The translations under genes and the position numbers were made by a program. 64,000 nucleotides of DNA, taken from contig CACGMC010000003.1 in NCBI GenBank assembly GCA_902574035.1, positions 106,154-170,153 on the forward strand, in the 5' to 3' direction. The notes under the pieces are model-generated. The model did not search any database and was not told the origin of the DNA. It was given only the letters and a program-made list of their open reading frames with translations. The first letter of the stretch is position 1. The number at the start of each line of letters is the position of its first letter. This stretch comes from an uncultured Pelagibacteraceae bacterium (lineage in GTDB: Bacteria; Pseudomonadota; Alphaproteobacteria; Pelagibacterales; Pelagibacteraceae). This document shows positions 22,982 to 45,077 of this stretch, one piece after another.

Positions 22982-23914
22982 CTAGTTTTTTGTTAATTGA
23001 ATAAAAACATCTTCGAGGTCTCCCTCATCTATTGAAATATCAAGTATATTCAAGTTTTTTTCTTTAAAATAATTTATCAGTTGTTCAAAGTCAATTGCCT
23101 CCTTTTCATAATTTACCACAATCGTATTATTGGACTCAATAGAAAATTTTACATTTTTTAGGGCGAGGGAAATACTAGAGTCAATTTTTTTCAATTTGAA
23201 TATAATTTTTTTGGTTTTTATTCTCTCTAAAAGTTTATTTGTTGTATCTAGAGCAACTAAATCTCCGTTATTAATAATTGCTATTCTGTCACACATTTCT
23301 TGAGCTTCGAACAAGTAATGAGTAGTTAAAATTATTGTTACTCCTATTTTGTTAAGTTCTTTTACGTTTTCCCATAAGTTTTTTCTCAATTCAACATCAA
23401 CTCCTGCAGTTGGTTCATCCAAAACAAGAATTGGTGGTTGGTGCACCATAGCTTTGGCAATTAGCAGTCTTCTTTTCATACCACCAGATAAATTTCTAGA
23501 ATAACTGTCTGCTTGATCATTTAAAGAAACTAATTTTAAAATTGTTTCTGTTATTTTTTGACTATTTTTAATACCATAAAGTCCTGCCTGCAAATCTAGT
23601 AATTTTTTGGGACTAAAAAAAGCATCTAAATTTACTTCTTGAGGAACTATCCCAATTGATGCTCTAACCTGTCTTGGATTTTTATCAAGATCAAATCCCC
23701 AAACATTTACCTTACCGTCAGTTTTAATGACTGTGCCAGCTAATATACTCAAAAACGTTGTCTTGCCTGCACCGTTAGGCCCTAACAAACCAAAAATTTC
23801 ACCCTGCTTTACTTCTAGAGTTATGTTATTTAATGCATTTATTCGAGATCCTCTTTTTTTATCTCGCATGTATACTTTTGAGAGGTTTTCAACAGATAAA
23901 GCAGTTTTAATCAT
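22982..23914 (-). CDS. ABC-2 type transporter ATP-binding protein
   Basis: Cytoplasmic ATPase of an ABC exporter. 310 residues: Walker A GLLGPNGAGKTTFLSILAG (about 43-61), Q-loop VPQEVN, signature LSGGMKRRLLIAKAM, Walker B LVLDEPTAGVD and switch His in LTTHYLFEAQEM. A C-terminal extension of about 90 residues is the regulatory domain of DrrA/CcmA-like exporters. No permease gene is adjacent, so its partner must be elsewhere. Divergent from polA with 39 bases between. Confidence 0.88.
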   Translation of the reverse strand: MIKTALSVENLSKVYMRDKKRGSRINALNNITLEVKQGEIFGLLGPNGAGKTTFLSILAGTVIKTDGKVNVWGFDLDKNPRQVRASIGIVPQEVNLDAFFSPKKLLDLQAGLYGIKNSQKITETILKLVSLNDQADSYSRNLSGGMKRRLLIAKAMVHQPPILVLDEPTAGVDVELRKNLWENVKELNKIGVTIILTTHYLFEAQEMCDRIAIINNGDLVALDTTNKLLERIKTKKIIFKLKKIDSSISLALKNVKFSIESNNTIVVNYEKEAIDFEQLINYFKEKNLNILDISIDEGDLEDVFIQLTKN

Positions 23915-23953
23915 AAAATTTTATTATAGCACTAATTTTAGGTATTATAAATT

Positions 23954-26722
23954 ATGAGCAAAATAAAAAAGTCAGATCATTTTTATCTAATTGATGGCTC
24001 AGGCTATATTTTTAGAGCTTATTACGCTTTACCACCCCTTTCTCGAAAAAGTGATGGTTTGCCAACTGGAGCAGTGAGTGGATTTTGCTCTATGCTTTTT
24101 AAACTATTAGAGGATGCAAGAGCTGATGATAGCAAGGAAAGGCCTACCCATTTTGCAGTAATTTTTGACTCATCAAGAAAAAATTTTAGAAATGAAATTT
24201 ACAAAGATTATAAAGCGAACAGGAGCGAAGCGCCTGAAGACTTAGCTCCACAATTTGAGTATATAAGAAAATCTGTAAAGGCTTTTAATTTACCGTCAAT
24301 AGAACTATTAAATTACGAAGCTGACGATTTAATAGCAACTTATGCAAAACAAATTACTAATTTGGGAGCAAAAGTAACAATTATTTCTTCTGACAAGGAT
24401 TTAATGCAACTCGTTTCAAAAGGTATAAGACTGTATGATCCAATGAAAAGTAAAGTTATTGGAGAAAAGGAAGTAGTAGAGAAGTTTGGGGTAAAACCCA
24501 CACAAGTTGTAGATGTCCAATCGTTAGCAGGTGACTCTTCCGATAATATTCCAGGCGTTCCTGGAATTGGCATTAAAACTGCCGCTGAACTTATAAATAA
24601 ATATAAGAATCTAGATACTTTATTGAATAAAGCCTCTGAAATTAAACAAAATAAAAGAAGAGAAACACTATTAGAAAATAAAGATAAAGCTTTATTAAGT
24701 AGAGAATTAGTAACTTTAAAATCTGATGTTCCAATTAAAGATGAATTAAATAGTTTTATTTTAAAGGATGTAAACAAAGAGACTCTGTTTAATTTTTTAA
24801 GAGAGATGGAGTTTAATAGATTATTAAGTCAAGCTATAGGTTATTACGGTGAAAGCAATAAGGGTTTAGAAAAAAAGAAAAATGAAAATAAAATATCAAA
24901 AGTCGATACAAACACTTATAAAAATATTCTTAGTGAGACTGATCTAGATGACTTAATAAAAAATTTGAATGAAAAATCAATAATATCAGTTGATTGTGAA
25001 ACTTCATCTTTAAATCCAATTAATGCTGAACTTGTGGGTATTTCTTTTAGTTATGATATTAATAAAGCTTATTATATTCCTATTGCTCATAAAAATGTTA
25101 AAAGTTTAAGTAAAGAAATTGTAATCAAAAAGATAAAAAAAATTCTTCAAGATCCAAGTATAAAAAAAATCGGTCAAAATATAAAATATGATTTCATGGT
25201 TTTTAAAAAATATGGAATTGATATTGAGCCAATAGAGGACACAATGCTTCTTTCATATACATTAGATGCAGGAAATAACAGACACAATATGGATATCTTG
25301 TCAGAGATTCACCTAGGCCATAAAACAATATCATATAAAGAAATAGTAGGTTCGGGTAAAAAACAGCTAAATTTTTCCGATGTAAATCTTAAAGAAGCTA
25401 CAAAGTATGCTGCAGAAGATGCTGACATCACTTTACGTCTTTACCATATTTTAAAAAAAAGAGTGGATGATGCAAAACTTAATAAAATATATGAGATATT
25501 TGAAAAACCAATGATCAAATTATTATCTAAATTAGAAATGAATGGAATAAAAATTGATGATGCCTACTTAAAAAAGTTATCTAAAAAATTTAAGGAAAGA
25601 TTAATTAAAAAAGAAAAAGAGATTTATAAACTCTCGGGAAAAGAATTTAATATAGGTTCTCCAAAACAGTTGGGAGAAATAATTTATAATGATTTAAAGA
25701 TTGCAAAACTTAAGAAAACAAAGAAAGGTAGCCTCGCTACTAGTGCTAAAGTGCTTGAAGATCTAGCATCAACAGGACATAAATTTCCAAAACTCATCAT
25801 CGAGTGGAGACAAGACTCTAAACTAAAAAGTACTTACACTGATGCTTTGCAAGATCATATAAATAAAAAAACAAAAAGAGTTCATACTTCATTTTTACTA
25901 GCTGCCACTAATACTGGCAGACTTGCATCTAGTGATCCAAATCTGCAAAACATACCAATTAAGTCTGCTGATGGTAAAGAAATTAGAAAAGCGTTTGTAG
26001 CGGATAAAGGTAATATTCTTATTTCTGCTGATTATAATCAAATAGAAATGAGAATACTTGCGGATATGGCAGACGTGAAAGAACTCAAAAAAGCCTTCAA
26101 AAATAATGAGGACATTCACTCTTTAACTGCTAGTCAAGTTTTTAACATTTCTATTAAAAAGATTAATGAAGATTTAAGAAGAAAAGCAAAAGCAATAAAT
26201 TTTGGTATTATATATGGAATTACTCAATATGGTTTAGCAAAACAAATTTCAGTTTCAAATCAAGAGGCTCAAGATTTTATTAATCAATACTTTAAAAAAT
26301 TTCCCGAAATCAAAGACTACATGAACAGTACAATAAATTTCTGTAGAAAAAATGGATATGTAAATAACATTTTTGGAAGAAGAATTCATTTAAGAAGTAT
26401 AAACGATAAAAATTTTAGCATTAGATCATTTCAAGAAAGAGCAGCGATTAATGCTCCTATTCAAGGTTCCGCTGCAGATATAATTAGATTGGCTATGATA
26501 GAAATTGATAGAGTTACAGAAGAGGAAAAAAAAATTAGTGCAAAAATGTTACTTCAAATACATGATGAATTAGTTTTCGAAAGTTCAATAAAAGATCAAA
26601 AAAACAATGAGAAATTGATAAAAAAGGTTATGAGTTCAGTTTCTTCTTCCGAGCATCATATGTTTTCAATTCCATTGGAAGTAAGCGTAAATTCAGGATA
26701 TAATTGGGGTGAAGCTCATTAA
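23954..26722 (+). CDS. polA: DNA polymerase I
   Basis: Repair and Okazaki-fragment polymerase. 922 residues with three domains. The 5'-3' exonuclease covers about 1-290 (LIDGSGYIFRAYYALPPL, YEADDLIATYA, GDSSDNIPGVPGIGIKTA). The 3'-5' exonuclease covers about 320-510 (VDCETSSLNP, IGQNIKYD, YAAEDADITLRL, so it looks active). The polymerase domain has TGRLASSDPNLQNIP, SADYNQIEMRILA, RRKAKAINFGIIYG and IHDELVFE. Nothing unusual. Confidence 0.97.
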   Translation: MSKIKKSDHFYLIDGSGYIFRAYYALPPLSRKSDGLPTGAVSGFCSMLFKLLEDARADDSKERPTHFAVIFDSSRKNFRNEIYKDYKANRSEAPEDLAPQFEYIRKSVKAFNLPSIELLNYEADDLIATYAKQITNLGAKVTIISSDKDLMQLVSKGIRLYDPMKSKVIGEKEVVEKFGVKPTQVVDVQSLAGDSSDNIPGVPGIGIKTAAELINKYKNLDTLLNKASEIKQNKRRETLLENKDKALLSRELVTLKSDVPIKDELNSFILKDVNKETLFNFLREMEFNRLLSQAIGYYGESNKGLEKKKNENKISKVDTNTYKNILSETDLDDLIKNLNEKSIISVDCETSSLNPINAELVGISFSYDINKAYYIPIAHKNVKSLSKEIVIKKIKKILQDPSIKKIGQNIKYDFMVFKKYGIDIEPIEDTMLLSYTLDAGNNRHNMDILSEIHLGHKTISYKEIVGSGKKQLNFSDVNLKEATKYAAEDADITLRLYHILKKRVDDAKLNKIYEIFEKPMIKLLSKLEMNGIKIDDAYLKKLSKKFKERLIKKEKEIYKLSGKEFNIGSPKQLGEIIYNDLKIAKLKKTKKGSLATSAKVLEDLASTGHKFPKLIIEWRQDSKLKSTYTDALQDHINKKTKRVHTSFLLAATNTGRLASSDPNLQNIPIKSADGKEIRKAFVADKGNILISADYNQIEMRILADMADVKELKKAFKNNEDIHSLTASQVFNISIKKINEDLRRKAKAINFGIIYGITQYGLAKQISVSNQEAQDFINQYFKKFPEIKDYMNSTINFCRKNGYVNNIFGRRIHLRSINDKNFSIRSFQERAAINAPIQGSAADIIRLAMIEIDRVTEEEKKISAKMLLQIHDELVFESSIKDQKNNEKLIKKVMSSVSSSEHHMFSIPLEVSVNSGYNWGEAH

Positions 26723-44548: not shown

Positions 44549-44992
44549 TTATTTTATCTCAATAAGTCTTTTTTTCTTTGCTTCTGGCACGATTTTTTCA
44601 CAGGAGATCGTCAAAAGTCCATCTTTTAACTCGGCACCACCCACTTTTACATCATCTGCAATTGTAAATGATCTGGCAAAAGATCTTTGAGAAATACCTC
44701 TATGAATTATTTCATCACCATCTTTTTTTTCAGAACTTTTAACTTGTTTTGTCTTAACAGTTAAAAGATTATCTTCGTATTCTACTTCAACATCATCTTT
44801 ATTAAAGCCAGCAACTGCTACTTCAATAGCATACTTATCTTTGCCTGCTTTTCGAATGTTGTATGGCGGATAATTGCTTTGTACAGCAAGACTACCATTA
44901 CCAAGCATCGACTCGAATTGATCAAACATATCGTCGAATCCAATGCTAAAAGGTCTAAGTGAATTAAAGATCGATAGATCCTTACTTGTCAT
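44549..44992 (-). CDS. hsp20: Small heat-shock protein Hsp20/IbpA
   Basis: ATP-independent holdase chaperone in the cytoplasm. The start is placed at 44992 (MTSKDLSIFN) because GGAGG lies 4 bases upstream; an in-frame ATG at 45037 has no such site. 147 residues. Alpha-crystallin domain about 40-130: YPPYNIRKAGKDKYAIEVAVAGF, GLLTISCEK. The N-terminal SLRPFSIGFDDMFDQFESML and C-terminal RLIEIK are IbpA-like. It has a heat-shock-type promoter, a folded leader and a strong terminator, so it is a monocistronic stress gene. Confidence 0.93.
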   Translation of the reverse strand: MTSKDLSIFNSLRPFSIGFDDMFDQFESMLGNGSLAVQSNYPPYNIRKAGKDKYAIEVAVAGFNKDDVEVEYEDNLLTVKTKQVKSSEKKDGDEIIHRGISQRSFARSFTIADDVKVGGAELKDGLLTISCEKIVPEAKKKRLIEIK

Positions 44993-45043
44993 ATTTCCTC
45001 CTTTGTTAGCAAGGTTAATGTTGATCCCATTTGGCAATCAACA
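44990..45043 (-). promoter_or_regulatory. ROSE-like RNA thermometer in the hsp20 leader (candidate)
   Basis: Minus-strand leader. Near the start codon, CTTGCT (45013-45008), loop AACAA, AGGAGG (45002-44997): the ribosome site pairs with UUGCU, leaving a G opposite a G, which is the signature of ROSE elements in rhizobial small heat-shock genes. A first hairpin, TGTTGAT (45043-45037) with ATCAACA (45025-45019), carries an inner CC/GG pair. The ATG at 44992-44990 follows. Pairing was read by eye; no folding energy was computed. Confidence 0.5.
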
Positions 45044-45047
45044 AATT

Positions 45048-45077
45048 ATATATGGTATTTTTTTTTTTATTTTCAAG
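45048..45077 (-). promoter_or_regulatory. RpoH (sigma-32) type promoter of hsp20
   Basis: On the minus strand CTTGAAA (45077-45071), 15 bases, CCATATAT (45055-45048). The sigma-32 consensus is CTTGAAA then CCCCATNT with a similar spacing, so the -35 is perfect and the -10 lacks only the first two C. It lies 8 bases after the end of the peptidase gene. The transcript would start near 45041, at the first leader hairpin. Confidence 0.65.

Follow-up and report, generated by a model that had tools for sequence, protein, structure and literature searches.

The window, a 64,000-nucleotide stretch of the genome of an uncultured Pelagibacteraceae bacterium, contains a gene for a small heat-shock protein that is preceded by a short leader and an RpoH-like promoter (Table 1). 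The predicted protein scores 70.9 bits against Pfam HSP20 (cut-off 20.8) and is 41% identical to IbpA of E. coli. Against the NCBIfam IbpA equivalog it scores 103.5, below the cut-off of 212. The ATG lies at 44992-44990 on the minus strand. An hsp20 gene is found in 342 of the 397 genomes of the order and in 104 of the 169 genomes of the genus, including 13 of the 14 that are at least 90% complete. Directly past the stop codon is a 12-base inverted repeat followed by T-rich sequence (44541-44514), likely a terminator.

Table 1. Features of the hsp20 locus, in window coordinates
Feature	Position	Strand	Basis
hsp20, small heat-shock protein of 147 aa (P0001)	44549..44992	-	Pfam HSP20 match
Coding hairpin III, AAGGAUC-UAUC-GAUCUUU, codons 4-9, clade-specific	44966..44983	-	Folds and minority codons
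Codons 3-5, AGUAAGG, alternative 7-pair partner of CCUUGCU (helix B)	44980..44986	-	Fold and codon lock
Ribosome-binding site AGGAGG, 3' arm of hairpin II	44997..45002	-	Six pairs with CCUU(G)CU
Anti-ribosome-site strand CCUUGCU with ROSE motif UUGCU, G 45010 drawn as bulged	45008..45014	-	Motif conservation
Hairpin I, UGUUGAUU(G)CC-AAAU-GGGAUCAACA, bulged G 45035	45019..45043	-	Fold and covariation
-10-like element CCATAT	45050..45055	-	15 bases past CTTGAAA; exact in 76 of 113 distinct family leaders
-35-like element CTTGAAA, RpoH type	45071..45077	-	Exact in 101 of 113 distinct family leaders

Promoter and leader set

Comparison across the order was based on 147 leaders, 125 of them distinct. 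Their sources were named Pelagibacteraceae contigs, 80 in number and the best of 560 relatives, together with searches and 20 chosen places; loci L003-L031 are not among them. Before the motif count, L145, L151, L160, and L161 were dropped for having partial genes or truncated leaders, and L083, whose start had been misplaced by the script, was excluded from later counts. From the hairpin I foot to the ATG, the 113 distinct leaders of the window's family measure 51-60 nt.

The promoter elements are kept across the family. The first-pass annotation had proposed a promoter close to the RpoH consensus ahead of hsp20, and the sequence CTTGAAA-N15-CCATAT agrees with this. The spacing of 15 bases recurs in 97 of the 113 distinct family leaders, and hairpin I begins 5 bases past the -10 element in 87 of them; no -35-like string was found in three. 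A search of the genome with CTTGAAA-N12-18-CCATAT returned two matches, the hsp20 leader and a site within a coding gene, and the reversed control pattern returned one. The genome has an rpoH gene (359 bits, cut-off 323). The region upstream of rpoH (L182, G000:C5) contains two CTTGAAA strings within about 75 bases of the start, possibly a sign of autoregulation. Placed from the promoter only, the hsp20 transcript would start at about 45043-45041, which coincides with the 5' end of hairpin I.

Structure of the leader

Hairpin I is supported by covariation. The hairpin of seven pairs described in the first-pass annotation is present and is a little longer than stated, with 10 pairs and one bulged G in the predicted fold. 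The 54-nt leader has a folding z-score of -2.09, and 6 of 200 shuffled sequences fold equally well. Alignment A1 consists of 47 non-redundant leaders taken from the 113 distinct family leaders at an 86% identity cut. In this alignment, both-sided changes are seen at seven of nine hairpin I pairs, and 98.3% of the cells are paired. The two-hairpin structure as a whole exceeds all of 500 shuffled alignments on all five measures. The loop end of hairpin I has the form YGCY with a bulged G opposite RGG, a likeness to the ROSE motif itself. RNAalifold predicts hairpin I from the SAR11 leaders and does not predict hairpin II.

The ROSE motif in hairpin II is conserved throughout the order. U(U/C)GCU precedes the ribosome site in all 125 distinct leaders (124 by rule and one by eye), so the UUGCU noted in the first-pass annotation is kept. 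It is found 2-7 bases ahead of (A)GGAG in the 124 leaders that follow the rule, and thus the spacing varies. The motif has become UCGCU in genus g4, in one of the two g5 sequences, and in a second family (f2), and these variants stay inside the published ROSE motif U(U/C)GCU as given in PMC3669281. The special G of the anti-site strand is invariant in all 47 leaders of A1. In the window the two strands enclose the loop AACAA (45007-45003), and the combined pattern of anti-site and ribosome site, CYTTGCTNNNNNAGGAGG, occurs once, at this leader, and in none of 100 shuffled sequences.

Within SAR11 hairpin II is nearly invariant, and therefore its support there is motif conservation rather than covariation. 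Three of its six pairs show no variation in the 47 leaders. One pair changes from U-G to C-G in three sequences, another is lost in one, and the outer pair (columns 38-57) is C-G in 28, A-U in 1, and unpaired in 16.

Covariation of the ribosome-site helix is found in other Alphaproteobacteria. Leaders of 87 hsp20 genes outside the order were picked by protein similarity and not by motif, and in 81 of them U(U/C)GCU lies no more than 45 nt from the start that the script had picked. In 75 leaders with a following AGGA (the 3'-most AGGA was used), the flanks of the UYGCU:AGGA helix were compared with shuffled flanks. Pairing at the first four flank positions is 89, 80, 65, and 61% in the leaders and 61, 56, 48, and 37% in the shuffled set; the less favourable of two measures gives p ≤ 0.0004, with statistics that ignore relatedness. 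At the fifth position the difference is not significant (41 versus 35%) in these 75 leaders. Family f2 fits the register of this test in 11 of 11 leaders. The window's family is unpaired in that register and uses the AGGA one step upstream. In the window register, 86 of 112 family leaders have a C-G or A-U pair adjoining CUUGCU; in ten outside leaders with this register the pair is U-A in five, A-U in three, C-G in one, and unpaired in one. Compensating changes are thus strong in hairpin I and are also seen in the hairpin II flanks of other Alphaproteobacteria.

The ROSE motif with its flank and the register comparisons with outside leaders are the reasons for preferring a bulged G. The pairs would then be, in A1 columns, C38-G57, C39-G56, U40-A55, U41-G54, [G42], C43-G53, and U44-A52. 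The pairing of UUGCU with the ribosome site described in the first-pass annotation stands, while its register, with G opposite G, is probably shifted by one step.

Pairing with the coding region

In the window's clade the first codons of hsp20 can compete for the anti-site strand. Among 102 sequences from the window's genus and near relatives (11 distinct f2 and 12 distant or odd sequences were excluded), all 101 serines at codon 3 are encoded by AGT, and 100 of the 101 lysines at codon 4 by AAG. In the genes of the window AGT makes up 21% of serine use and AAG 14% of lysine use. The choice of AAG over AAA creates structure, and therefore structure avoidance at gene starts would not explain this codon lock. 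Coding hairpin III, which is incompatible with the full helix B, likewise uses minority codons, with CTA, TCG, and ATC in 79, 70, and 73 of the 102 sequences. Relative to a synonymous-codon null, helix B reaches about 0.03-0.07 per sequence in 11 sequences tested from the genus of the window and genera close to it; the values for one g5 sequence and for g8 are 0.043 and 0.0035. No such excess is seen in f2, in g2, g4, and g7, or in the second g5 sequence, showing that helix B is clade-specific.

Energy modelling does not decide between hairpin II and helix B, as the favoured pairing shifts with the length of coding region included. At 25 C and with 9 nt of coding region, the ribosome site is paired with the anti-site strand in 105 of the 113 leaders. 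With 21 nt the coding pairing is favoured in 102 of the 113 and the ribosome site is mostly unpaired, and with 60 nt a coding pairing is seen in 85. Helix B is the minimum-energy fold of the window sequence with 13 nt of coding region, the two folds are about 1 kcal/mol apart with 27 nt, and hairpin II is better by about 2 kcal/mol with 45 nt. The folding model predicts only a slight opening of the leader between 5 and 45 C.

These results bear on an alternative in which helix B is the main regulatory fold, with the ribosome site and AUG in its loop. The leader would then be a lock or switch of the start region and would resemble ROSE less than it does the messages of E. coli rpoH or lambda cIII. 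In favour of this are the folds with 13 and 21 nt of coding region, the codon lock, and the excess over the null in the window's genus, close genera, one g5 sequence, and g8. Against it stand the groups in which helix B does not exceed the null, all of which keep U(U/C)GCU, the covariation of the ribosome-site helix outside the order, and the fold with 45 nt, and this alternative is considered rather doubtful. A ROSE-like leader with a contribution from the gene is another matter. Since the anti-site strand is able to pair with codons 3-5, the 5' end of hsp20 probably takes part in some way, and a thermometer whose coding end participates has, for the window's clade, a chance that comes close to even. 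To judge from the codon lock, a thermometer may extend past the start codon into the gene.

Covariance models

The leader scores below the cut-offs of the Rfam ROSE models. In the window the leader matches no Rfam family at the gathering cut-off and no ROSE family even at E ≤ 10, and the ROSE models have no match in 18 relatives. When RF00435 was run on 12 genomes of the order, the single hit at E ≤ 10 was the hsp20 leader of one genome (G171; 19.7 bits, E 0.77, cut-off 45), and sub-threshold hits of this model also occur in 3 of 14 control genomes. RF01832 (ROSE_2) hits no hsp20 leader, and its hits elsewhere are chance-like. The strongest of them, at 23892-23960 across the start of polA (22.9 bits, cut-off 65), was taken as chance. 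The cut-offs of RF00435, RF01832, and RF02523 (ROSE_3, presumably the family of the Pseudomonas ibpA thermometers) were reached nowhere tested. The ROSE-like assignment made in the first-pass annotation is therefore not carried by these models, and the leader is not filed in any of the three families.

A model trained on SAR11 leaders only (R1) picks out mostly leaders of heat-shock genes outside the order. It was searched in 385 genomes of the class and gave hits at E ≤ 0.1 in 22 of them, five in the order and 17 outside, with none in the other 363. Eleven of the 17 outside hits lie upstream of hsp20, two upstream of dnaK, and one upstream of rpoH, and the DnaK and RpoH genes score above their NCBIfam cut-offs. 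Ten of the hsp20 hits end at the start codon and the remaining one (L207) ends about 35 nt further up. The last three hits precede an open reading frame without an NCBIfam match (L203) or no clear gene (L199 and L205). Apart from the hsp20 leader, the genome of the window has no R1 hit better than E 1.75, and R1 does not hit the E. coli ibpA leader. The hits ahead of dnaK and rpoH in other Alphaproteobacteria (L204:1501-1554, L206:1501-1561, and L201:1501-1565) have UUGCU before the start.

Leaders in marine phages

Similar leaders precede hsp20 genes in viral sequences. The string CTTGCTTAACAAAGGAGG, which is present in related SAR11, is found in 24 IMG/VR contigs, and every one of these has an R1 match of 35-58 bits and an hsp20 relative directly downstream. 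A further 71 viral hsp20 contigs were obtained as the closest relatives of one CTTGCTTAACAAAGGAGG contig (80 loci, nine of them already counted), and 60 of the 71 have an R1 hit at E ≤ 0.1. The string CTTGCTAACAAAGGAGG from the window's genus gave one viral hit, which is not at hsp20 (17.3 bits) and was taken as chance.

Named phage genomes also carry the leader. A phage collection of 50,697 records includes 506 in which an hsp20 relative is present (E ≤ 1e-5). R1 matches the hsp20 leader in 12 of the first 14 records, namely HTVC008M (weak, 17.6 bits), Mosig, HTVC115P, HTVC103P, HTVC104P, Melnitz-3, P-SSM4, S-RSM4, S-PM2, P-TIM40, and two single-cell viruses; the hsp20 leaders of S-B68 and AG-345-D19 have no R1 match. 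A second sample of 15 was chosen from 30 rows spread down the hsp20 ranking. All 13 cyanophages in it match, Pseudomonas phage Deifobo matches weakly (13.4 bits), and Vibrio phage PWH3a-P1 has no R1 match. Whole records were searched with stricter filters for 27 of the 29 phages (L411 and L414 were excluded). Hits at E ≤ 1 were obtained in 22 of the 27, and each of these 22 records has its top hit at the hsp20 leader. The records without a hit in this search are HTVC103P, S-RSM4, S-B68, and the Vibrio and Pseudomonas phages; the leaders of HTVC103P and S-RSM4 were matched in the leader search yet missed under the stricter filters. RF02523, whose cut-off is 43, gives lower-scoring hits on two of 13 cyanophage leaders (29.2 bits, E 0.011; 21.1 bits, E 1.2).

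The phage leaders retain hairpin I, and many show a TATAAATA-like string where the host has its heat-shock promoter. The 129 viral loci count seven contigs twice, and 23 of them failed the motif rule. The motif core of the phage leaders is set by this selection rule, and therefore only hairpin I and the flanks are informative. MAFFT placed the ribosome site of phage leaders wrongly, and pairs were therefore counted with an anchored script in 43 non-redundant leaders out of 45 (L401 and L408 were excluded, also from alignment A2); the script could not read hairpin I in five of the 43. Across the remaining 38 leaders, pairing at the four inner flank positions of hairpin I reaches 100, 100, 97, and 84%, compared with 39-54% in shuffled sequences (p ≤ 0.0002). 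A TATAAATA-like string, which is taken here to be a T4-type late promoter, is found a short way upstream of 58 of 106 viral leaders (16 of the 43 non-redundant ones) and in 2.8% of background windows. CTTGAAA is found in 3 of the 106. Viral hsp20 loci with a two-hairpin leader (L299-L322 and L401-L427) belong to pelagiphages, a Methylophilales phage, and cyanophages.

The distribution of the leader and the phylogeny of Hsp20 point to movement between cells and viruses. A tree of 96 Hsp20 proteins has eight changes of phage label, at least five of them on well-supported branches, although it is based on few columns and the support values are rough. In this tree HTVC008M, Mosig, and one viral contig group with SAR11, and another contig groups with other Alphaproteobacteria. 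Fragments of host genomes may be present among the IMG/VR contigs but not among the named phage genomes. It is likely that marine phages (pelagiphages, a Methylophilales phage, and cyanomyoviruses) carry ROSE-like thermometers before hsp20, many of them under a TATAAATA-like promoter, and that Alphaproteobacteria and phages have exchanged gene and thermometer on several occasions, giving the phages temperature control of a chaperone without the host sigma factor. A like leader stands before hsp20 in SAR11 and in phages, so hosts and viruses have probably passed this temperature control of translation between them. A ROSE-like sequence is described on one small heat-shock gene of the cyanobacterium Anabaena in PMC4166951, and so a cyanobacterial source may apply to the cyanophage leaders.

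Discussion

The hsp20 leader is very probably a short, two-hairpin, ROSE-like RNA thermometer, a putative assignment made by comparison of sequences. Motif conservation, covariation, and the specificity of R1 for heat-shock leaders all argue for this reading, which was already put forward in the first-pass annotation. Transcription would start from the RpoH-type promoter at the foot of hairpin I, and hairpin I, given its covariation, would be a stable folding module. At normal sea temperature CCUU(G)CU would pair with AGGAGG through six pairs with a bulged G, as the comparisons indicate, and would hide the ribosome site. On warming, hairpin II would let go. In the window's clade the 5' end of the coding region may form a second lock around the start codon, or it may be a competitor that frees the ribosome site. 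A leader of like kind stands before hsp20 in other Alphaproteobacteria and in marine phages.

The closest known systems are the short ROSE-like thermometers of Pseudomonas. These proved thermometers are described in PMC3669281 as having two hairpins in a leader of 61-62 nt, the motif U(U/C)GCU, and sigma-32 control, and according to the same source deletion of the special G alters control. The SAR11 leader shares with Pseudomonas ibpA the two hairpins, the pairing of U(U/C)GCU with the ribosome site and the bulged G (both predicted here), a sigma-32-type promoter (here by sequence), and a small heat-shock gene. It differs in that it is slightly shorter and AT-rich, has a partner in the coding region and a hairpin I with its own YGCY and bulged G, scores below the Rfam cut-off, and is also borne by phages. 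The leader is short, as the first-pass annotation had said of a ROSE of about 50 bases, but its size is not new in view of the Pseudomonas leaders (PMC3669281). With the rhizobial ROSE elements (RF00435) it has in common UYGCU opposite the ribosome site, the special G, a small heat-shock gene, and an origin in Alphaproteobacteria. Unlike the SAR11 leader, classical rhizobial ROSE has three to four hairpins by the account in PMC3669281.

Control by the protein itself is another possible function of the leader. Under this hypothesis the leader would be mainly a binding site for Hsp20, which would repress its own translation like IbpA of E. coli, and temperature would enter through titration of Hsp20 by unfolded proteins. 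PMC10474464 reports that IbpA represses itself through its own 5' UTR and links Arg93 and Tyr34 to this repression by mRNA binding, and the window Hsp20 has an arginine and a tyrosine at both aligned places, so a protein layer of control may be added. Such repression is compatible with a thermometer; as the sole explanation it would leave the pairing of U(U/C)GCU with the ribosome site unexplained, and as the main function of the leader it seems unlikely. AGGAGG is a strong ribosome site, but the idea that it and the promoter are kept merely for expression level, with incidental hairpins, is highly improbable in view of the covariation in hairpin I and the flanks, the minority codons that create rather than avoid structure, and the specificity of R1 for heat-shock genes and phage hsp20.

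The ROSE-like reading places the phage leaders beside a few known phage thermometers, which in the account given by PMC11182007 are lambda cIII, SPbeta blyA, and the sigma-70 leader of a gut phage. As in these cases, the hsp20 element is a message leader in a phage, and its temperature dependence is predicted. The gut-phage sigma-70 leader is called a fourU element (PMC11182007) and lambda cIII is said in PMC4166951 to switch between two folds, whereas the leader on phage hsp20 is ROSE-like. Unlike all three, it recurs across cyanophages and pelagiphages. Among the open-licence matches listed, no title or opening of an abstract reports this element on phage hsp20. For SAR11, the main text of a screen of P. 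ubique (PMC2704228), searched by term, does not mention a heat-shock gene or a thermometer, and a 2019 screen of strain HIMB5 (PMC6429828) lists 'a possible RNA thermometer', which may be the hsp20 leader. The new points are how deeply the leader is conserved in SAR11, its partner in the coding region, and, most of all, its occurrence on phage hsp20.

SAR11 bacteria, which count among the most numerous cells of the ocean, possess only a small set of regulators. A conserved thermometer acting on translation would give them one of the few means by which they sense temperature directly, a point of relevance to warming oceans. The phage leaders are natural experiments in which the leader is kept and the promoter replaced, and with them cyanophages and pelagiphages would sense temperature by means of RNA.
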